Positions 9,828-46,635 of a stretch of DNA of 64,000 nucleotides are shown piece after piece (position 1 is the first letter of the stretch; each line of letters starts with the position of its first letter). The stretch is taken from positions 1 through 64,000 of the forward strand of contig NZ_JAJAUZ010000009.1 in assembly GCF_020532645.1 (NCBI RefSeq). Reading direction: 5' to 3'. The position numbers and the translations under genes are program-made. This DNA is from Streptomyces bambusae. GTDB lineage: Bacteria > Actinomycetota > Actinomycetes > Streptomycetales > Streptomycetaceae. A model generated the notes under the pieces. The model saw only the letters and a list, made by a program, of their open reading frames with translations, made no database searches and was not told the DNA's origin.

Positions 9828-12800
9828 TCAGTCGATCGGCACGGGCGGCTCGTCCTTGCGGGCGAGTTCCTTGATCTGCGTCGCGGACAGGACGCCCGCG
9901 TAGACCTGCATGGAGTCGAGCTGTCCCGCGACGTGGTTGCCGAAGGCTCCCGTGTCGTGGCGTCGACCGCGGCCCAGGTTCAGCGGACCGGAGGGCTGGA
10001 AGACACCCTGCGAGGCGACGCCGGTGTCGGCGCCCTGCCGCTCACCGGTCAGGTACAGCTTCAGGGAGTCTGTGACGGAGTCGTAGACGCCGGCCACGTG
10101 CACCCACCCGGTCGGGGAGTTCACCGCGTCCGAGGTGACGGATGCGCCGGGGCCTTCGAGGACGTCGGTGGCGAAGGTGCCGAAGCGCCATGTGCCGGTG
10201 GTCTCGCCGGCTTCCTGCCTGTACCACAGCCGGAAGGCGTCGCGCTGGGCTCCCGGATGGGCGAACACAGACGCGGAGTGCGCAACAGAGGTGTCGTCGA
10301 GAGTGGAATCGGCAGCCAGGTTCACCCAGCCGGCGACAGTGAAACTGCCTGCGTTGTCGAGCACGACCGGCGACGTGGCGTGACCGCCCTTCGCTTCGTC
10401 GAGGGAGACGACGCGCTCACGCCCGTAATCGCTCGTTCCGAGGAACACAGCACCGGGCTGAAGCGTCAGCTTGTTCCCTCGCCCGGAGCTGTCGGCGCCG
10501 ACGGAGCCGCTGGTCTCATTGGCTTCCCAGGCGGCAAGCTGAGCTGCACGCGGATGGCCGCTCTGCGGGTCTTCGGCGTTGACCACGTCACCCAGCTCGT
10601 AGGGGAAGACCGTCCGATTCCACAGCTGGACCTGGTCGACGTCCGCGGAAAGCTGGACTCCTCCGTCCCAGCCGCCTACCTCCACTCGGCCGGACGCCTG
10701 CCACGGCGTGGTGAAGGCGGTCTCCGCCTGCTCCGCACCGTTCACGTACAGGCGGATCTTGCCTTCCTTGAGGTCGTACACGCCGAGAAGATGCGTCCAC
10801 GCCCCGAGGACCGGCGGGCGCTGCGAGATCGCCCGGGCGACGGGCAGGGAAGCCGAGTAGGTCTCGTCCTTGCCGTAGCGATTGAAGATCCACCGGTCGT
10901 AGCCCGAGGAGTAGTACAGCTGGAAGGCGCCGGCGTTGACACCCTGCTGCTGGACGATGGTGCTCTGGTCCTTGCTGTTCAGCTTCACCCAAGCGCCGAC
11001 GGAGAAGCTGTTCGCGGTGTTCAGCACAGGGCCGGTGGTCGCCGCGTAGACGTTGGATCCGGTGCCCTTGAGGCCTGAAGACAGGCGGGCGTGCTTGGAC
11101 CAGGACGCTTGGCTCAGCGTCAGGGGGTACTTCGTGGCTGCAGAGTTCACGGACGAGACGCCGGCGTTTTCGTCGAAGCGCCATTCAGTGACGGGACCTG
11201 ATGGGCGCGCGACATTGAAGAAGTAGTACTCGGTCTCGCTGACGTTCCCGGCCTGGTCGTACGTCTGCACCCGGAGCTGGTTGGTGCCGGCCCGGTCAGG
11301 CGTGATCTTGATCTCGTAGCTTGCCGTGTTCGTGGCGAACGTCTTGCTCTCCAACAGCACGCCGCCGAGCCAGATGTCGTACCGCCGCACATCACTCGCG
11401 CCAGCTGCGATCTTGAACGTGCCCGTCATCCCGACACTGCCGGTCTCAGGGTCAGCGTCGCACGACGTTCCCGCACACTCTGTGTACGGGGTGGACGTGA
11501 CCTTGGGCTTGGGCGGGGCGCTGGTGTCGATCTTGAAGTAGCAGCCTGCAGAATACGGGCCCTTGACCGAGAGCATCTTCCCGCCGTACGGGTAGCGGTA
11601 TTCAGTGCGGGCGGTGAACCCGTACAGCTTTCCGTCTTCGAGCGTGCGAGTGGGAACGCTGCCTGCGGTACCCGAGGCCGTCCACGTGTCGGGGGCCAGC
11701 GTCTCGACCAGACCGCCGTCGGTGTTGTCGTACAGCTCGAACACCGGCCTGAGGTGCGCGTTGCCGGCGTCAACGGAAGTCGGTGTGCCCGTCAGGCGCG
11801 GCGTGGTCGTGCGAATCACGGCAGGGGTGCTCTTGGCGGAGCACGCCATGCTGGGGTACGACATCTTCACGGATCGCGGTGCCTCGTCCGGCAGCGAGAT
11901 GTAGTCGATGCGCAGCCGCGGCTTGAGCTGCGGGTCCTTGAGGACCCGATCGTCGGCCGGGGAGATGAACTGCTTCCAGGCGAAGGGGTCGGTTTCGCTG
12001 GCGGCCAGGCCAAGCGTGGTGGTCGCGGACTTGGCCCCAACCGCGTGGGCGACTGCAGCGGTGGCGTCGAATTCGACATCCCCATCCGGGCAGTTGGCCG
12101 AGAATCCCTTGGCGGCAGACCTCGTGTCTACTTGCGTCCAGCTCAGCTTGGACGCCCAGGTAGTGCCGGACGAGATGGGGCTGGTCCGGTAGAGGCTGAC
12201 GTCCTTCTTCGTGCAGTTGGCCGACCAGATCTCGTACGCCGTGAACTGCGCGCCGAGGATCTTCTTGCCCACCACGCCACGGGTGTCGAATTGGTAGAGC
12301 GACTTGGACTTCTTGTTGTCCACGTAGGCGTCGTAACCGACGCCCAGGGCGTGCGAGGTCTTCCAGAACGAGGTCGAGGGGCTGTTCGACCAAAGTGTTG
12401 TCCAGCCGGTGAGGGTGCCCGGAGTCGACGGCGGATCGATGACCACCGGATAGCTGGTGTCCGGGTGGGCCAGAAACTCCTGATCCGGCGCGACGGACAA
12501 CGCATCCGTGGAGAGCGCCACCTTGGCAACCGCCGTCTGGGACCCGGGGTCCGGCAGCACAGGGTTCTGCTCGCTATCGGCAATCTCGGTAGCGGCCGCC
12601 TGAGAGGAGGCGGCCCGCATCGCCGTCTTCTGCATGCTGGAAGCCGGCTGTGTCGGCGTTGCTGCAGGCGCCGAGTCCCACATCAGCGCGGCGCTGCTGG
12701 AAAAAACGACACTGCCCCGAGCATCAACCATGGAGGTCGTGCCGTTGGCGTGAGCACTGACAGAAAGCCCTGAAGTCTTCAGCGGGAACTTGATCGACCT

Positions 12801-38285: not shown

Positions 38286-38366
38286 CGCCAAGGCCGGGGC
38301 GAAAGCCGGTGCTTCTCGGAAAGGCTCGCTGCTCAGAATCCCTGCTTCCCCCGGCCGGCGGCTCTG

Positions 38367-38837
38367 TCACTCCGTGCGGGGTCCGTCGAGTTCCGGAGCC
38401 TTGTCGGTGGTCTTCTCCAAGCGTTGGGGGTTGAGGTCCCCTGGCGTCTGCACTTCCAGGAGGCTGCCATCCACGACGAGCGTGAGCTCTGACTCGCCGC
38501 ATCCCGGACCGGGGATCGGGGTCAGCACGAGTGGAGGGCCTGGGGACTTGAGGGTGTAGTCCTCCTGGCATTGGCTGTCGCCGACCCAGACCTTCTGCCG
38601 TGCCATGTGCTCGCCCGGGCGGCCCTGCTTGATGCTGAATTCGATGGTGAGCGGCGAACCTGCCCCCACGCTATGGGAGGCCTTGTAGTCCCATACGCCG
38701 AGGTACTCCTCGGGAACAGGGCCGGAGGACCGGTCGGCACTCGTACAGTCCGTGGCTAGGACAACGGCTGCCAGCAGGGCCAAGGTGGTGCGCGTCGCGG
38801 GTCGGGCGGTGACGCGTCGAGGGCGGTGCGAGTTCAT
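38367..38837 (-). CDS. Secreted hypothetical, possible lipoprotein
   Basis: Protein of 156 aa from ATG 38837. A basic N-terminus and hydrophobic segment (TLALLAAVVLA) are followed by TDC, a poor lipobox because D precedes the Cys. Processing by a normal signal peptidase is equally possible. The rest is beta-rich: GVWDYKASHSV, GSPLTIEFSIKQ, CQEDYTLKSPGPPLVL and a second Cys pair. It converges with the TauE gene. Function unknown. Confidence 0.6.
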   Translation of the reverse strand: MNSHRPRRVTARPATRTTLALLAAVVLATDCTSADRSSGPVPEEYLGVWDYKASHSVGAGSPLTIEFSIKQGRPGEHMARQKVWVGDSQCQEDYTLKSPGPPLVLTPIPGPGCGESELTLVVDGSLLEVQTPGDLNPQRLEKTTDKAPELDGPRTE

Positions 38838-38890
38838 CGGCACGGCCCTCCCCGAACCGCGCGGCCACCCTAACTGGTACCCGGGTCGTG

Positions 38891-38922
38891 TCGTGTCGTG
38901 GTGGCATCGTGTCGTGGTGGCA
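38891..38922. repeat. Two tandem 16-bp repeats
   Basis: TCGTGTCGTGGTGGCA occurs twice in perfect tandem in the gap between the secreted protein (start 38837) and the GNAT gene (start 39061). Confidence 0.75.
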
Positions 38923-39060
38923 TACACCGCTGGTGGCCGGCTCCCCCGTCAGTCACGCTTCGCCGGATACGTCAGCTCTTGCCGAGCGCGTGCCCGCGTG
39001 CATGCCGGGCAGAGTCCCGGCCGCGAGGGCGGGGGAGTTTGGCGCGGTAGCCTGGTGATC

Positions 39061-39519
39061 ATGGGGGGATGGGGGATCCGGCTGGCTTCGGCGGCGGATG
39101 TCGAGGCGGTGGCCGAGCTGCGGGCCGTGGTGCTGCGGGCGGATCTGGAGCGGCTCGGGCGGTACGACGAGCAGCGGGTGCGGCAGCGGCTGCGGGACGG
39201 GTTCGCTCCGGCGCACACCTGGGTGATCGAGGTGGGTGGTCGGTTCGCCGGCTGCGTGGCGCTGCGGCCCGCCGAGCACTGCCACTGGCTGGAGCACTTC
39301 TACCTGGCTCCCCGCCTGCAGGGCAGCGGCATCGGTACGGCCGTGCTGCGTGAGCTGCTGGATCGGTGCGACCGCGAGGGCACCCGGATCCGGCTGAACG
39401 TGTTGCAGGGCAGTCGGGCCCGGCGTCTGTACGAGCGGCACGGGTTCACATGCGAGACCGAGGATCCGGTGGACGTGTTCATGGTGCGCGAGCCGGCGCA
39501 GGCGGTGCGGGGCTCCTGA
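39061..39519 (+). CDS. GNAT-family N-acetyltransferase
   Basis: Protein of 152 aa. The acetyl-CoA loop is LAPRLQGSGIGTAVLRELL (the Q/RxxGxG/A motif), followed by IRLNVLQGSRARRLYERHGF, the classic RimI-type ending, and EDPVDVFMVRE. ATG 39061 is used; GTG 39055 is 6 nt upstream. Substrate unknown. Confidence 0.88.
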   Translation: MGGWGIRLASAADVEAVAELRAVVLRADLERLGRYDEQRVRQRLRDGFAPAHTWVIEVGGRFAGCVALRPAEHCHWLEHFYLAPRLQGSGIGTAVLRELLDRCDREGTRIRLNVLQGSRARRLYERHGFTCETEDPVDVFMVREPAQAVRGS

Positions 39520-39604
39520 TCAGCGATCCGGTTCGCGGAGCCGGAGGATCAAGGAGTCGGGTAAGGCCCCGGGCACGGCGGCGCGGCACAGCCCTGGGAA
39601 GATC

Positions 39605-40921
39605 ATGCACATGCCCCGACTCCCCCGCCGCTCCACCGCCTGGACGAGAGCGCTCGGCGCGGGAGCCGTGGCTCTCGCCTTCGCCGCACCGCTGCTCCTG
39701 TGGATACGCAACGGCATCCAGCCGCGCCACGACGTCGTCCTCCTCGCCACGGGTGCCTTGGTCTGTGCGGCCGGGTGGGTCGTCGCGGGCACGGCCGCGC
39801 CCCGGGTCGCCGCACGCGCGGCCGCGGCGGACGGAGCGGTCCCGGGGGTCCCCGTATTGCTGCCGCGCAGCAGGCGGGGATGGCAGGTGCCCGCGCTCGC
39901 GCTGGCGCTGCCCCTGAGCCTCCTGACGGCCGGACTGCTCGGCTCGTTCCCGGGCCCCGCCGCCCACGCGCGGATCAGCACCCTGCAACGGGCCGGGGCG
40001 CACGTGCTGCCCGGTACGGTGGTGTCGGCGGAGCAGGTCACGGTCTCCTCGTGGAGCTACAGGAGGAAGGGGACCAAGAACGTCCGGGACACCCCGGACG
40101 AATACCGGTCGGACCTGGTCCTGACCGTGCCCGGGCCCCGCGGCCGTTCTGTGCGCATCTCGGCGCCCGGCGCCACGACGCCGCTGCGGCCGGAGCGCGG
40201 GCGCAGCTTCCCCGTGCTGGCCGCCCCGGCCCGGCCGGAGCTCCCCGGCTACGTGGCCGCCGGCACCGAGCTGCGGATCCACCAGCCCGGTTACGGGGTC
40301 TCCCCCGCGCTCGCCGCGCTCATGGCGGCCGTCCTGCTCTTCGTCCTGTGGCTCGCGTTGCTGCTCACCGGAGTTGCGGCCGCACCCGGCCGCAAGGAGG
40401 TGCGGGCCGTACGTGCGTCCCGGCCTGGTGAGCGCCTCGCGCTGCGCACCCGGCTCGTGGAGCTGCACGGCGGGGACGGGCTGCAGTTCGCCGCCACGGG
40501 CGCGGACGACGCACCGGTCGTCCTGACGGTCTCCCGGCGGCGCGAATGCGCGGCGGCGCTCGCCACCGAACTGGCCGGCCACACCGGATGGATGGTCACC
40601 GTCCGCCCGGGGACCGCGGCGCTCTGGATCGGGGACGACGGCACCTTCCTGTGGGGCCTCCTGCACCCGACCGACGCCGCCTTCACACCGCCCCCGGCCG
40701 CACCGGCCCGCGGACTGCGCCGGACCACTCCGCTGACCTGGGCGCATCCCGCCGTCCACCTCGGCCCGTTGGCCTTGGCGGCCCTCGCCCTGGCGCTGCT
40801 GACCCCGGTCCTCACGGACCCCGGGGCGAAGGCGACCGTTCCGATGGTGCTCGCCCTGCTCCTGGGTGGCGGTGCGAGCGCGCTGTGGGCCGTGCTGCTG
40901 CGGCGGCGCCGTCGCGCGTGA
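39605..40921 (+). CDS. Integral membrane protein with soluble domains
   Basis: Protein of 438 aa. ATG 39605 follows GGGAAG; a second ATG is two codons on. Membrane segments: two near the N-terminus (about 20-65), one around 95-115, one around 240-260 (AALMAAVLLFVLWLALLL) and two at the C-terminus. Between segments lie a beta-rich extracytoplasmic region (GTVVSAEQVTVSSWSYRRKG, SDLVLTVPGPRGRSVRI) and a cytosolic part ending SRRRECAAALATELAGHTGW. The layout resembles Streptomyces membrane proteins of unknown role. It converges on the effector gene with only 8 nt between stops. Confidence 0.7.
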   Translation: MHMPRLPRRSTAWTRALGAGAVALAFAAPLLLWIRNGIQPRHDVVLLATGALVCAAGWVVAGTAAPRVAARAAAADGAVPGVPVLLPRSRRGWQVPALALALPLSLLTAGLLGSFPGPAAHARISTLQRAGAHVLPGTVVSAEQVTVSSWSYRRKGTKNVRDTPDEYRSDLVLTVPGPRGRSVRISAPGATTPLRPERGRSFPVLAAPARPELPGYVAAGTELRIHQPGYGVSPALAALMAAVLLFVLWLALLLTGVAAAPGRKEVRAVRASRPGERLALRTRLVELHGGDGLQFAATGADDAPVVLTVSRRRECAAALATELAGHTGWMVTVRPGTAALWIGDDGTFLWGLLHPTDAAFTPPPAAPARGLRRTTPLTWAHPAVHLGPLALAALALALLTPVLTDPGAKATVPMVLALLLGGGASALWAVLLRRRRRA

Positions 40922-40929
40922 GCCGGTCT

Positions 40930-43242
40930 TCACAAGTGTCTGAGGCTGTGGTCGGCCTCCTTGGAGTTCGGGATCGGTGCGAGGTCGAAGTTCACCTCGC
41001 CCTGGTGTCTGCCGCGGGCGTCGCAGTGCTCGAAGCGGCCGTGCTGGGTGTCCACCGAGTACAGGTGCCCGGTGCCGGGATCCCGGTAGACGTCACGGTT
41101 GTTCAGGGAGGAGAGGCGCCGGTCGAACTCGAACCCGTGCCGGGCGGCCTGCCGTTCGGCCTCCCCGGACACCCGCGCGACCCGCTCTCCGGGGGTCAGT
41201 CCGGCGAGGGAGGCTTCCCAGGCCCGTACGTCGAAGGCGGCCGCGCCGCCGGCTGCCGCGCCGCCCGCGGGGGCGGGCGGCGCCATCTTGCGCATGTCCT
41301 GCTGGAGCTCCCGGGCGAGTCCCTCCAGGTTGGAGAGCTCTTCCCGCATCGCCTCGCGCACGCCGGGGTCGTCGGCGAGCAGCTGGGCCGCGGCCTCGGT
41401 GTCCTGCTCCAGCTGGGACAGCCTGGCGTCGAACTGCCGGAAGGCCGGGTTCGAGGCGTTGGCGGCGGCCAGTTCGCGGCAGGCCCGCAGTCGTTGCCGG
41501 GCCGGGCCGGGGAGCCGTAGCAGCACCTCACGCTCGGCCGCGGCGGCCTGCCGCTCCAGGGAGGCCGCCTCGCGCAGCAGGGCGGTCTCCTGGGCGGTGC
41601 GCTCCGCGTCACTGAGGCCTTCGGCGGCCTTGACGGCGCGGGCCCGCTCGGAGATGCGCTCGGCCTCCGCGATCAGCCGGGCGCCCTCGCCGGGTGCCTG
41701 TTCCGCGGTGAGGGCGCGGGCCCGGCCGATGATGTTCTGCAGCAGCTCCATGCACTGGTCGCTGCACCGGATCAGGCGGCCGTCGGCGAGCAGGGTGATC
41801 TCGTGGGTCTCGCGCAGTGCGGTCTCGGCGACCTGCACCTCCCGGCTCGCCCCGCGCCCGGCCGCCCGGCCCCCGGCTCTCGCGGCGCCGCCGGCGGGAC
41901 CCAGCCCGTACGAGAACCTCAGGTAGCGCACCAGGAGCGCGAACAGCCCTTCCGCCGCCTCGACGAGGGGGGCCAGCGCGCGGTTGCCCGCCGCGAAGCT
42001 GCGGAACCCGGCGAGTGCGGCCCGGGCCGGCGCCAGTGCCTCGGCGGCCTGGGCACCCGCCTCGACCAGTCTGACGACAGCGCGCAGTCCGGACAGGGCC
42101 TCCTTGAGTGCCGTGTAGCCGCCCTCGGTCAGGACCAGGAGCGTCACTTCGAAGACGGCGGTGCCGGCCACCCAGCCGATGCCCTCGCCGAGGGCGCGGT
42201 CGGGACGGCTCATGAACCTCAGCAGGGCGTCGGAGAGTTCGGCGCCGACCGCTTCCACCCCGCGCAGGGCGGCGCTGACCAGTTGGTCGGCCATCTGGAT
42301 GATCGCCAGCGGGTCGGTCCGTCCGGCGGTGAGCCGGGCCAGGGCGGCGGAGATCTGCGGCCCGAGCCGGTCCAGGGCGGCCTGCACGTCCGCTTCCAGC
42401 TGCCGCCGGGAGTCGCCGTGCGCAAGGGTGGACAGCAGGCGCAGCTGCGCGGCCTGGACCTCGTACCCGATCTTGAGCAGGTCCCAGAGCAGCACGAACG
42501 GGCCGGTCACCCCGTCCCAGAGGCCGGAGAGCAGGCCCTGGAGGAAGCCGAGGGCGAAGTCCTCGCTGGGGCTGAGCACGATGCGGGCCATCCGGTCGGC
42601 GATCCGCACTTTGGTGCTCTGCGGGTAGCTCAGCGCCCGTTCCAGAGCGCCGATGGCCACGTGCTGGAGGATGGTGCCGACCGGCAGTCCGGGCGGGCCG
42701 GGGATCCGGGCGGTACGGGCGGCTGCGAGGCAGGCTCGCAGGACCTGGTCGATGAGGGGCCCCTTGAGCGCCTCCGGGATCTCCTCCCAGGCGATGGCCG
42801 AGAGTACGACGGGCAGCCGGGCGGGGTTTTGGACGCAGTCGGCGACCAGTCCCGCGGCCCGGGCCACGGCGGGGCCCGCGGAGCTGACGCTCCGCCATGC
42901 GTCGCTGAAGAAGTCCCGCTGGACCACGGGCTCTTCGGCCTCGTTCGCCGGGCCGGAGCGACATTCCTCGCAGCAGTCGCCGCCGGAGCTGCCGCACTTG
43001 CCGGAGCTGTCGGAGTTTCCGGAGCTGCCTGAGCGTTGGACGGCGAGGGCGCCGGTCACGGCCTTGTTGCCGGCGGCGCGTTGCAGTTGGAGGGCCTGCC
43101 GCGGGGACATCCCGGCCCGGAGCGGGGGCGTGGCCGCCGGGCGCGGTGCCGGTTCGGGCCCGGCGGCCCCGGGGGTGCCCGTCGAGGTGCCGGCACGGGT
43201 CCCCGGCTCCCGCACGGCGGTGCCGGGCAGTCGCTGTCCCAT
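40930..43242 (-). CDS. eCIS-type effector candidate with colicin E3-like rRNase tip
   Basis: Protein of 770 aa from ATG 43242 after GAGGAGGGGG. Order: Pro/Gly-rich leader; LQLQRAAGNKAV at 51-62, the LQRxAGNxAV motif common at the start of extracellular contractile injection system proteins and cargo; a Ser/Gly segment with a CCEEC-type cysteine cluster; a long mainly helical middle; a coiled-coil part (ALLREAASLERQAAAAEREV); and a C-terminal domain of about 60 aa. There VDTQHGRFE places D731, H734 and E738 at the D-x2-H-x3-E spacing of the colicin E3/cloacin 16S rRNase, followed by RGRHQGE and a basic end. The predicted act is cleavage of 16S rRNA. No immunity gene is adjacent: the neighbour is convergent. 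No signal peptide is present. Confidence 0.75.
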   Translation of the reverse strand: MGQRLPGTAVREPGTRAGTSTGTPGAAGPEPAPRPAATPPLRAGMSPRQALQLQRAAGNKAVTGALAVQRSGSSGNSDSSGKCGSSGGDCCEECRSGPANEAEEPVVQRDFFSDAWRSVSSAGPAVARAAGLVADCVQNPARLPVVLSAIAWEEIPEALKGPLIDQVLRACLAAARTARIPGPPGLPVGTILQHVAIGALERALSYPQSTKVRIADRMARIVLSPSEDFALGFLQGLLSGLWDGVTGPFVLLWDLLKIGYEVQAAQLRLLSTLAHGDSRRQLEADVQAALDRLGPQISAALARLTAGRTDPLAIIQMADQLVSAALRGVEAVGAELSDALLRFMSRPDRALGEGIGWVAGTAVFEVTLLVLTEGGYTALKEALSGLRAVVRLVEAGAQAAEALAPARAALAGFRSFAAGNRALAPLVEAAEGLFALLVRYLRFSYGLGPAGGAARAGGRAAGRGASREVQVAETALRETHEITLLADGRLIRCSDQCMELLQNIIGRARALTAEQAPGEGARLIAEAERISERARAVKAAEGLSDAERTAQETALLREAASLERQAAAAEREVLLRLPGPARQRLRACRELAAANASNPAFRQFDARLSQLEQDTEAAAQLLADDPGVREAMREELSNLEGLARELQQDMRKMAPPAPAGGAAAGGAAAFDVRAWEASLAGLTPGERVARVSGEAERQAARHGFEFDRRLSSLNNRDVYRDPGTGHLYSVDTQHGRFEHCDARGRHQGEVNFDLAPIPNSKEADHSLRHL

Positions 43243-43418
43243 GCGCCCCCTCCTCGACGGCCCCCGTCCCGGCCAGAGGAAATGGTGACAGCGCCCGGCC
43301 CCACCGGACATGCCCTTACGGGCACCCGCTCGGCTCATCCTCCGCTGCGGGGAGCCTGCGGAGCAGACGCCCGTCCCGCAGCCCTGTCGTCACCGCGTCA
43401 CGGTCGGCCGCCCGACCG

Positions 43419-44156
43419 TCAGGCGGCGGCGAGTCCGTCCGCGAGGAACTCGTCCACGTGCTTCTGTGCCCGGCGGTCGAAGTCGGCGTACTGCGCCTCG
43501 CGCTCGGCGCCGGCGACCGCTTCGCCGACCAGCAGGTTGCCCTCGGCGTCGATGCGCTGCGGCCGCTCCTCCGCGTCGAGGAGCAGTCCCACGGTGGAGC
43601 GGGAGAAGCCGCAGTAGTAGGCGATGCCGTCGCTCAGGTTGGTTTCGAGGACGGACTGCATCGAGTCCGCGAAGGGGTCGTCGGAGGTGGCGCCGGCCAG
43701 GGCCAGCCACAGCATGCGCTTGCCCGCCAGGCGGGGCTTGCTGCGGCCGTAGGCGAACCCGTAGTTCCACACGCGGTCGATCCATCCCTTGAGGACGGCG
43801 GGCACGCTCTGCCAGTACACCGGGAAGACGGCGACGACGGCATCGGCGTCGAGGATCCGCCGCATGTGGGCGTGCGTCTCGTCCGAGTACGGCTTCTCCC
43901 GGTTGCCCCAGTCCGGCTGGTCCTGCGCGTTCATGCGAGGGTCGAACCCCTCGGCGTGCAGGTCGAGCCAGTCGATGCGGTATCCGGCGGCCTCGAGCCG
44001 GGCGGCCGCACGGCGGGCGGTGTGGGCGGTGAGGGAATCGCTGCGGTGGTGCGCGACGACCACGAGGGCCGTCCTCGTCTCACGGCTGTTGTCGCTGCTG
44101 CTGTGGCGGCTGCTACTGCTGTGACTGCTGCTGTTGTCGTTGCTGTGCTGCGGCAC
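43419..44156 (-). CDS. Flavodoxin-fold NAD(P)H:quinone oxidoreductase
   Basis: Protein of 245 aa. GTG 44156 follows GGGAG. The first 30 residues are a Ser/His/Asn-rich low-complexity tail (SSSHSSSSRHSSS). The enzyme then begins with ALVVVAHHRSDSLTAHTA and has the Flavodoxin_2 signature VFPVYWQSVPAVLKGWIDRV, as in MdaB/KefF. It needs FMN or FAD and performs two-electron quinone reduction. Divergent from the AraC/cupin gene, which probably controls it. Confidence 0.87.
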   Translation of the reverse strand: MPQHSNDNSSSHSSSSRHSSSDNSRETRTALVVVAHHRSDSLTAHTARRAAARLEAAGYRIDWLDLHAEGFDPRMNAQDQPDWGNREKPYSDETHAHMRRILDADAVVAVFPVYWQSVPAVLKGWIDRVWNYGFAYGRSKPRLAGKRMLWLALAGATSDDPFADSMQSVLETNLSDGIAYYCGFSRSTVGLLLDAEERPQRIDAEGNLLVGEAVAGAEREAQYADFDRRAQKHVDEFLADGLAAA

Positions 44157-44266
44157 GGTGTCTCCCGAGGGCTCGATCTGTGCGGTGAGTCCAGTACAGC
44201 CGCGGCGCCGTGGATGATCCATGGGAGAAACTCTTCAGGACATAGGAGATCGTCTACGATTGTGCG

Positions 44267-45196
44267 GTGGATCCTCTGAGTTCGCTCCTGAGCGGCATCC
44301 GGGCCGAGGGCTCGATCGTCAGCAATGCCGTCCTGACGGCGCCTTGGAGCATCACCTTCGCCGATGCCGCTCCGCTCACCATGGTCAGCGTGCTCCGCGG
44401 GGGCGGCACCCTGCTGCTGTCCGACGGCACCGAGCGGGCGATCGACGCGGGTGACACGGCCATCGTCCGAGGGCCTGCCCGGTTCCGCCTCGCGGACGAG
44501 CCCGCCACCGTCCGACGCCCGCACACCGCGTACGAGATCAACTGCTTCACCGCGGACGGAGCGTGCACCGGCCGGGAACTCGACGGCATCCGCTGGGGCA
44601 CCGGCCCGGAGGGGGCGACCGCGCTGGTCGTGGGCGCCTACCGCGCCTCGGGGCACCGCCACGAACGGCTCCTGCGGGCCCTGCCGCCCGTCCTGGTCAT
44701 CACCGAGGACGCCGAGGTCTGCGCCTGGCTGGAGAACTCCGCCGCCGACGCCGCGCGGCTCTCGGCCGGTTCGCAGGCGCTGATGGACCGGCTCCTCGAC
44801 TGGGCTCTGGTCTGCACGCTGCGCACCTGGTTCGACCGGGCGGGTGCCGACGCGCCGAGCTGGTACCGCGGCCTCGCCGACCCGGTCCTCGCCCCGGCCC
44901 TGCACGCCTTCCACGGGCGGCCCGCCGACACGTGGACGGTCGCGTCGCTGGCCGCTCAAGCCGGCGTCTCCCGGGCGCTGTTCGCCCGGCGCTTCACCGA
45001 GCTGATGGGACGTCCGCCCCTCGCTTACCTCACCGAGTGCCGCATGGACGACGCCGAGGCGATGCTGGCCGACACCGACCTGAGCATCGCGCAGATCGCC
45101 AAGGCCGTCGGGTATGCCGACGCCTTCGGTTTCAGCGCCGCCTTCAAACGCCACAAGGGCCTCAGCCCCAGCACCTTCCGCAGCACGGCGGCCTGA
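44267..45196 (+). CDS. AraC-family regulator with cupin domain
   Basis: Protein of 309 aa from GTG 44267. The N-terminal cupin_6-like sensor (VLRGGGTLLLSDGTERAID, GDTAIVRGP) is followed by two C-terminal HTH motifs (SLAAQAGVSRALFARRFTEL and IAQIAKAVGYADAFGFSAAF with FKRHKGLSP). Regulators of this kind are commonly divergent from a quinone reductase or SDR gene and sense reactive electrophiles (family knowledge). The start-to-start gap is 110 bp. Confidence 0.9.
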   Translation: MDPLSSLLSGIRAEGSIVSNAVLTAPWSITFADAAPLTMVSVLRGGGTLLLSDGTERAIDAGDTAIVRGPARFRLADEPATVRRPHTAYEINCFTADGACTGRELDGIRWGTGPEGATALVVGAYRASGHRHERLLRALPPVLVITEDAEVCAWLENSAADAARLSAGSQALMDRLLDWALVCTLRTWFDRAGADAPSWYRGLADPVLAPALHAFHGRPADTWTVASLAAQAGVSRALFARRFTELMGRPPLAYLTECRMDDAEAMLADTDLSIAQIAKAVGYADAFGFSAAFKRHKGLSPSTFRSTAA

Positions 45197-45560
45197 GGGG
45201 GGGGGCACGCGGCCGCGGGAAACGGGCCCTCCCGGGTCGGCGCCGCGCGGGGCGCTGAGCCGGGCGGTGGCCGGCGGAACGGCCGGGCGATGGCCGGCGG
45301 GGCGGCCGGGCGATGGCCGGCGGGGCGGCCGGGCCGGGTGCGTGGCGGACCGGTGAAGGCCACCCCCGTGGACCTCCACCCCGGTGAGACCGGTCGTTGC
45401 CGCGGTCTCTCCTCTTGCCCTCTTCCCCGCACCCGCACGGCTCGCCCCGGCCGGCCCCGCCTCTCACGTCACCCTACGGTCGCGGAGGACCGCGGGGCAG
45501 GGACCGCACGTGCCAACCAGGGGACCTTGCGCGCCATCCCTTGAACTACGATCACCCTCC
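45197..45560. other. 364-bp intergenic region with tandem repeat
   Basis: Very GC-rich, with a G9 run shortly after the stop at 45196 and the 3 x 23-bp repeat at 45262-45330. No gene or clear promoter is seen; the promoter of the next AraC gene should lie at the right end. Confidence 0.45.
45262..45330. repeat. Three tandem 23-bp repeats
   Basis: Units 45262-45284, 45285-45307 and 45308-45330. Units two and three are identical and unit one differs at three positions. The consensus starts GGGCGATGGCCGGCGG and ends GGCGGCC. Confidence 0.85.
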
Positions 45561-46589
45561 ATGGTTTTGCCCGATCACCAGGGGACGATGTCCGCCGCCC
45601 TCACCCGTGTCAGCATGGACACGGCACGGCTGCTGGGCGTGGACGCCCATGAGTACGTAAACCTGTTGGGACTGGCCCCCGAGCAACTGGACGACGACGG
45701 CTGCCGAGTGCCGTCCGCCACGAACATCCGCCTGGCGGAGCTGAGCATCGCGCGCGTGCCGTGGAACGAGCTCGCGGTCCGGCTCGCGAGCCGGTCGCCC
45801 ATCGGCAGTCTCGGCGTGTGGGACTACCTGATCACGTCCGCCGCGACACCCCTCGAAGGGATCCGGGAGGCGTCGGACCTCTTCGCCACCGTCGCCGACA
45901 CCGGTACGGACAGCCTCAGCGTCACCGTGGACGGCGACCACGTCACCGTCAGCCACACCAACCGGGCCGACGTGGGCCATGAGGCGGCCTGCGCGATCCG
46001 TGCGTTCGGACTGGGGCTGTACCGCCGGCGCCTCTGCGAAGCGGCGGCCCGGGACCTCGTACCGCTCAGAGTCTCGCTCGCCACCAAGGCACCCCACCGG
46101 CACGACAACCTGATCGAGCTCTACGGCACCAGAAGCATCGACTTCGAGGCTCCGGTCAGCTCGATCACCTTCCTCGTCTCCGATCTGACGGTTCCCAACC
46201 CGCTCGCCCAGCCGGGGCTGTCGACGGTCTTGCGGCGGCATGCCGAGCACACCCTGACCGCCGCGGTCCCCCTGCACTCCTGGCTGGACCTCTTCCGCAG
46301 TGCGCTGGCCTCCTCCCCCGACCAGACGGCTCCGACGCTGGCGGCCGTGGCACGGCACATGGGACTGAGCACGCGCACCCTGCAGCGCCGCCTCGACGAA
46401 CACGGCACCAGCTGGAGCAGGGAACTCGAGGACGGCCGGCGCGACCACGTGACGCGGCTGCTGCACGACACGACGCTCAGCATCGACGCCGTCGCCGCCC
46501 GGACTGGCTACGCCGACGCCCGCGCCCTGCGCCGAGCCGTCCGGCGCTGGCACGGCACCACACCCGCCGCCCTCCGTCACGGCGCCTGA
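45561..46589 (+). CDS. AraC-family regulator (OruR/ArgR type)
   Basis: Protein of 342 aa. The long N-terminal domain (LLGVDAHEYVNLLGLAPEQL, VWDYLITSAATPLEGI) matches the arabinose-binding-like domain of OruR/MmsR-type AraC proteins. C-terminal HTH pair: VARHMGLSTRTLQRRLDEHG and IDAVAARTGYADARALRRAV. ATG 45561 lacks a clear Shine-Dalgarno sequence; ATG 45588, just after AGGGGAC, may be the real start. No obvious target gene is adjacent. Confidence 0.85.
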   Translation: MVLPDHQGTMSAALTRVSMDTARLLGVDAHEYVNLLGLAPEQLDDDGCRVPSATNIRLAELSIARVPWNELAVRLASRSPIGSLGVWDYLITSAATPLEGIREASDLFATVADTGTDSLSVTVDGDHVTVSHTNRADVGHEAACAIRAFGLGLYRRRLCEAAARDLVPLRVSLATKAPHRHDNLIELYGTRSIDFEAPVSSITFLVSDLTVPNPLAQPGLSTVLRRHAEHTLTAAVPLHSWLDLFRSALASSPDQTAPTLAAVARHMGLSTRTLQRRLDEHGTSWSRELEDGRRDHVTRLLHDTTLSIDAVAARTGYADARALRRAVRRWHGTTPAALRHGA

Positions 46590-46635
46590 CGTCGGCGTCC
46601 CTGCGGGGGCCGCAGCTGCTGCACGGCAAGGCCGG

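Follow-up and report, generated by a model that had tools for sequence, protein, structure and literature searches.

Gene and features

The window analyzed here, a 64,000-nucleotide stretch of Streptomyces bambusae (contig NZ_JAJAUZ010000009.1, positions 1 to 64,000), encodes on its minus strand a 770-amino-acid (aa) protein which we interpret as a candidate effector of a contractile injection particle, ending in a predicted RNase tip of the colicin E3 type. The predicted fold and invariant residues of the tip, the exchange of C-terminal ends among relatives of the body, and two particle loci in the same genome carry this interpretation. The features concerned are as follows.

40930..43242, minus strand: the whole gene, 770 aa, comprising leader, helical body, pre-tip module and E3-like tip (translation, guanine-plus-cytosine (GC) content by codon position).
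43066..43086, minus strand: LQRAAGN leader motif, residues 53-59 (pattern search of its own genome).
41263..42912, minus strand: helices of the body and pre-tip region, approximately residues 111-660 (conserved across 12 homologues, alignment A1).
41743..41835, minus strand: pre-tip module, residues 470-500 (THEITLLADGRLIRCSDQC), also in P0014 and, in diverged form, in L018.
40933..41223, minus strand: tip, residues 674-770 (97 residues), with a predicted colicin E3-type RNase fold (model, structure matches, tip relatives).
41029..41052, minus strand: DTQHGRFE, residues 731-738, predicted active-site motif, aligning with DSQHGELE of colicin E3.
41005..41007, minus strand: His746, a second histidine.

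The ATG lies at 43242 and the stop codon ends at 40930, within a longer in-frame open reading frame (ORF) of 802 aa that starts at 43338. Codon-position GC of the 802-aa frame (0.77, 0.56 and 0.91 at positions 1, 2 and 3) makes it look like a genuine gene for this DNA. The assembly comprises 8.3 Mb in 168 unordered contigs, with the gene on contig C158. An earlier note on this locus, made from the letters alone, is confirmed as a whole: the LQRxAGN motif that it placed near the start is the LQRAAGN above, no signal peptide is visible by eye, and D731, H734 and E738 within VDTQHGRFE, followed by RGRHQGE, can be read directly in the translation. An NCBIfam scan of the protein returned no match.

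The colicin E3-like tip

The tip was modeled at a predicted local distance difference test score (pLDDT) of 93.8, and the comparison with colicin E3 structures that the earlier note had called for did not refute its claim: the best structural matches in Foldseek were colicin E3, at E-values of 0.04-0.17 and ranked above unrelated folds, and the top matches comprise two solved 16S-cutting toxins, colicin E3 and the C-terminal toxin (CdiA-CT) of Enterobacter cloacae (4ntq). Identity to the E3 structures is 12-14% across the aligned part. An alignment of 17 tips, one from the 770-aa protein and 16 from other bacteria, shows R716, D731, H734, E738 and H746 to be invariant in all 17, as H765 is among the aligned tips; L019 (broken frame), L028 (same tip as L027) and L034 (a 41-aa fragment) stand outside it. 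Because D731, H734 and E738 never vary, the motif is more than a chance resemblance. The conserved Tox-ColE3 set given in the available text of PMC3482391, namely R, D-x-x-[HK], E and H, is complete in the tip. The same text names H72 as the fold-conserved histidine of colicin E3, to whose region His746 may correspond, although that pairing is itself inferred. Two relatives of the tip, L016 (24.8 bits) and L024 (25.3 bits), exceed the curated PF09000 cut-off of 22. A literature search by colicin E3 residue names found no paper. Taken together, the tip very probably adopts a colicin E3-type fold as modeled, and would probably cleave 16S rRNA.

A shared body with exchanged ends

Twelve homologues of the body share 53-66% identity with the 770-aa protein in the best local alignment, and their ends differ. 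Proteins P0001-P0006, of which P0002 is from Actinoplanes sp. NPDC049599, bear the same tip, whereas the end of P0009 (residues 723-777, reaching the C-terminus) is a closer copy of colicin E3 (E 0.062 against the PDB; 16.8 bits against PF09000), so that two E3-like tips exist on one body. P0008 ends in Tox-REase-9, above its cut-off; P0007, P0011, P0012 and P0013 have a fourth end in common, and P0010 has a fifth. The fourth end contains KH near its start, with DLDD/DLND and YEFQPDNVG-like stretches; it gave no Pfam match in P0007 or P0011. At least five kinds of end thus occur among the 13 aligned proteins that share the body. A wider body-profile search listed 20 proteins, adding P0015, P0018, P0019 and P0020 with other ends (alike in the last two), as well as P0016 and P0017, which resemble fragments. 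PF13699 (eCIS_core, named for extracellular contractile injection systems, eCIS) is found in three of the 20, P0005, P0015 and P0021. It occupies the place of the leader in P0005, ahead of the same body and tip, while P0014 joins eCIS_core and a different first half to the same pre-tip module and tip.

As far as sequence can tell, a constant body with exchanged C-terminal ends is the pattern of a polymorphic toxin, and the combination of body, ends and eCIS_core is, genetically, what a polymorphic toxin associated with contractile particles would show. The body gene is rare: apart from its own genome, it turned up in none of 60 others searched, including 36 from the same genus; a scan of genome contigs with the body gave 14 pattern matches, none of which was confirmed.

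Leader motif and particle loci

Searching the genome for LQRxxGN returned five matches, against two for a reversed control pattern, and by eye the motif stands near the start of a plausible protein only in the 770-aa protein and in an eCIS_core protein on contig C111 (L005:2435-3133), which opens with a similar leader containing LQRTLGN. Among P0001-P0013, LQRxxGN stands close to the start in eight, with VQRLAGN in P0006 and eCIS_core in P0005; neither element was seen near the start of P0003, P0012 or P0013. The leader shared with the C111 protein is a candidate N-terminal loading signal, and no paper linking an LQR motif with eCIS appeared in the searched literature.

The search of the genome for eCIS loci, also proposed in the earlier note, found two and left its claim standing. 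Sheath genes above cut-off lie on contigs C111 and C136. The C111 locus encodes an AAA/winged-helix ATPase, sheath, gp19 tube, CIS_tube with LysM, hub, PAAR, Baseplate_J and the eCIS_core protein, with a Tail_P2_I match slightly under its cut-off; the C136 locus encodes a sheath, two gp19 tubes, a 918-aa eCIS_core protein, CIS_tube, hub, Baseplate_J and Tail_P2_I. We consider particle delivery of the 770-aa protein probable, and it is likely the cargo of one of these two particles.

Other genes at the C111 locus were noted. A 1296-aa protein (L005:3167-7057) follows the eCIS_core gene and has LQGRAGN near its start; its end appears deaminase-like by eye (HAERQ ... PCKGC), with no Pfam match at E 0.001, and it may be the locus's own effector. 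A squalene/phytoene-synthase-family gene and a PIN-domain gene (L005:7231-8965) lie between the eCIS_core and sheath genes, and an ADP-ribosylglycohydrolase-family gene (L039:8080-9297; PF03747, E 1e-59) lies a few genes past the baseplate genes.

Neighboring genes and the search for an antidote

Around the gene lie a putative ribosome-binding element and two neighbors.

43249..43255, minus strand: GAGGAGG, putatively ribosome-binding as read from the letters, just 5' of the ATG.
39605..40921, plus strand: convergent neighbor ORF, 438 aa, without a Pfam match (ORF list, Pfam scan, codon-position GC).
43419..44222, minus strand: upstream neighbor, flavodoxin-fold and quinone-reductase-like (Pfam PF02525, E 1.9e-34).

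The two neighbors are the quinone reductase and the convergent gene that the earlier note described on either side. Elsewhere, the tip is followed by a same-strand ORF of at least 70 aa, starting no more than 500 bases past the tip frame, in 19 of 19 loci. Eleven of these ORFs are, by eye, of the Imm45 kind (L020-L022, L025-L028, L030-L033; ten aligned as A6), five are of a second kind of 179-192 aa (L018, L023, L024, L029, L034; A7), and two of a third (L016, L019), with L017 a singleton. The Pfam scan covered the downstream proteins of L020, L018 and L016, the others being grouped by eye; that of L020 is Imm45, and those of L018 and L016, which represent two apparent immunity kinds, had no Pfam match. 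Imm45 was found for L020, L026 and L031. In Lysinibacillus odysseyi (L019:9596-10282) the frame ends at 10087, inside a tip match that runs to 10282, so this toxin copy looks broken, with its downstream gene kept.

None of the kinds sought was recovered for the 770-aa protein. An Imm45 antidote was rejected, as the genome gave no match while all three control genomes were positive. Profiles of the two commonest downstream kinds, A6 and A7, likewise had no match genome-wide; the A7 search gave no first-look candidate and lacked a control genome. Both profiles were also negative on the window and on the two stretches around the particle loci, where the positive rows were members of the models (L007 repeating part of the window). 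The 50 ORFs of 50-260 aa that overlap 38300-46600 contain no immunity domain; their sole Pfam families are seven acetyltransferase families, with one member each. Candidates near the gene were rejected: the 438-aa neighbor, which is convergent and lacks a Pfam match; the flavodoxin-fold gene; and minus-strand ORFs downstream such as 40291-40815, which are antisense within the 438-aa gene, the latter being favored as coding by codon-position GC. The claim that no immunity gene is adjacent is borne out for the known types sought, and no recognized antidote was found beside the gene or genome-wide, with PF03513 (Imm-Cloacin) and the L016/L019 kind outside the genome-wide search. The protein therefore appears to be an orphan toxin only as far as the sought antidote types reach.

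Interpretation and alternatives

We favor, with a probability of about 0.5, a polymorphic toxin that serves as effector of a contractile injection particle and whose predicted E3-type RNase tip would cut 16S rRNA in the decoding centre; the earlier interpretation, an rRNA-cleaving cargo of a phage-tail-like particle, is thereby supported, and remains an inference. In this mechanism, the leader with LQRAAGN would dock the protein into a particle made by the cell, and the C111 locus's small eCIS_core protein may act as the adaptor for loading; the tip would be shielded until the particle fires; and, once freed, it would cleave 16S rRNA and stop translation. As no antidote was recognized, the producer may be guarded by packaging, or the toxin may be made only in doomed cells, or an antidote may be unlinked or of unknown type. 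Relatives of the tip with a downstream immunity-like gene would suggest, by analogy, that bacteria are the targets, and having no recognized antidote is consistent with packaging or with a cell that is going to die in any case. It is conceivable, if improbable, that the particle delivers this ribosome cutter to hyphae of the producer itself or of its sisters, giving a death signal that has no antidote and for which the particle is the sole safety catch.

Several results weigh against the favored interpretation. As regards the tip, Foldseek gave no match at E 0.001 or better; PF09000 scores of 16 bits (whole protein) and 20.1 bits (tip alone) fall under the cut-off; of seven toxins with the tip that were scanned, five lack PF09000 at E 0.001, and the full-length scans of P0004, P0005 and P0006 listed no PF09000 match; and a profile built on seven tips did not list colicin E3, which a 17-tip profile places third at E 0.022. 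The basic C-terminal end asserted in the earlier note does not hold, residues 701-770 containing 10 K/R and 11 D/E. The model does show its 600-residue body as helical, though with low confidence, residues 111-444 being poor and the predicted template modeling score (pTM) 0.29. As regards delivery, sheath and eCIS_core matches above cut-off occur only on C111 and C136 (the contigs being unordered), the gene is linked to neither eCIS locus within ten genes, and the domain scan found no eCIS_core in the protein itself; for comparison, the available text of PMC11297309 puts 88% of known eCIS toxins no more than ten genes from the operon, and eCIS_core (DUF4157) is present in 36% of known eCIS-associated toxins by the published figure. 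Finally, an Acidobacteria protein with the tip (L018:9983-10855) contains a putatively eCIS_core-like HELTH stretch and is followed by a 192-aa immunity-like gene; it is a possible particle toxin that keeps its antidote.

The last case bears on the strongest alternative, that of an antibacterial cargo with an ordinary antidote, unlinked or of unknown type, which we regard as possible but doubtful. Downstream proteins of at least four kinds accompany the tip elsewhere, so a further kind is easy to imagine, and two known kinds fell outside the genome-wide search; the control-backed absence of Imm45, the null A6 and A7 profiles and the 50 surrounding ORFs all argue the other way. Somewhat unlikely is an E3-fold RNase with another RNA substrate, such as tRNA or another rRNA site. 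The identity to E3 structures is low enough to permit this, and the invariant H765 lies near the position which we take to match Arg545 of colicin E3, so that the active site may differ; nonetheless, D-x-x-H-x-x-x-E is retained. According to the available text of PMC9086364, the characterized CdiA-CT toxins of the wider BECR group cut tRNA, that of E. cloacae excepted, whereas the closest two structures, E3 and ECL, both cut 16S between A1493 and G1494. We think it unlikely that the protein is exported in some other way or has a purely intracellular role. Missing linkage and the missing eCIS_core speak for this, as do TPS, Rhs and LXG proteins that export the same tip elsewhere, but the domain scan found none of those three domains here, and P0005, P0015 and P0014 each combine eCIS_core with this body or this tip. 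A horizontally acquired, unused remnant, which would account for no antidote being kept and is favored by the body's absence from the 60 other genomes, is very unlikely given the intact frame, normal codon-position GC and full set of predicted active-site residues.

If the favored interpretation holds, it joins an E3-type 16S rRNase tip to contractile-injection effectors, parts of known kinds that are unjoined in the searched literature, where no paper pairs 'contractile injection system' with 'colicin E3', or 'eCIS' with 'rRNase'. In the available text of Geller et al. (PMC8213781), the missing immunity of antibacterial particle toxins is an 'intriguing mystery'. As the presumed target here is the producer's own ribosome, and the sister tips have a downstream ORF at every scanned locus, that question becomes directly testable.

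Comparison with known systems

The protein resembles the colicin E3 cytotoxic domain (Tox-ColE3, PF09000) in predicted fold, in D-x-x-H-x-x-x-E and in the conserved histidine after it, but differs in scoring under the Pfam cut-off, in its non-colicin body, and in lacking an adjacent Imm-Cloacin or Imm45 gene. For Tox-ColE3, the corresponding row of PMC3482391 gives the type II, type V and type VII secretion routes (T2SS, T5SS, T7SS), and the PVC type is absent from that row. CdiA-CT of E. cloacae, for which the available text of PMC9086364 lists D203, D205, H207 and K214 as active site, is by contrast CdiA-delivered and has its own immunity protein. Contact-dependent inhibition (CDI), Rhs and LXG toxins (L016, L020, L026, L031, L032) bear the same tip, 42-53% identical in aligned rows to that of the 770-aa protein, on other bodies, with other export routes and a downstream ORF. 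Ribocin was dropped as a eukaryote-directed relative; PMC13189344, in the text available, calls it structurally unrelated to colicin E3.

With eCIS-associated toxins (Geller 2021, Danov 2024), the protein has in common the leader motif, eCIS_core relatives, particle loci in the genome and no immunity gene, but its gene, unlike theirs, is not placed within ten genes of such a locus; neither paper uses the word 'colicin' in its main text. Many particle toxins are without a recognized immunity gene according to PMC8213781 and PMC3482391. By published description rather than sequence, and as far as the available texts go, a helix-rich body with a variable C-terminal functional domain also recalls Sle1/Sle2 of Streptomyces lividans (PMC13277306) and Tme of S. 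davawensis (PMC11126660), although their genes lie inside the particle cluster. DUF4157 is found in a partner in the former (Sle2, reported to contact both tube initiator and effector) and in cis in the latter, and the C111 eCIS_core protein with its 1296-aa neighbor resembles the Sle2-Sle1 pair on the same descriptive footing. In Streptomyces coelicolor, the available text of PMC10066040 describes particles that remain cytoplasmic and mediate death under stress.
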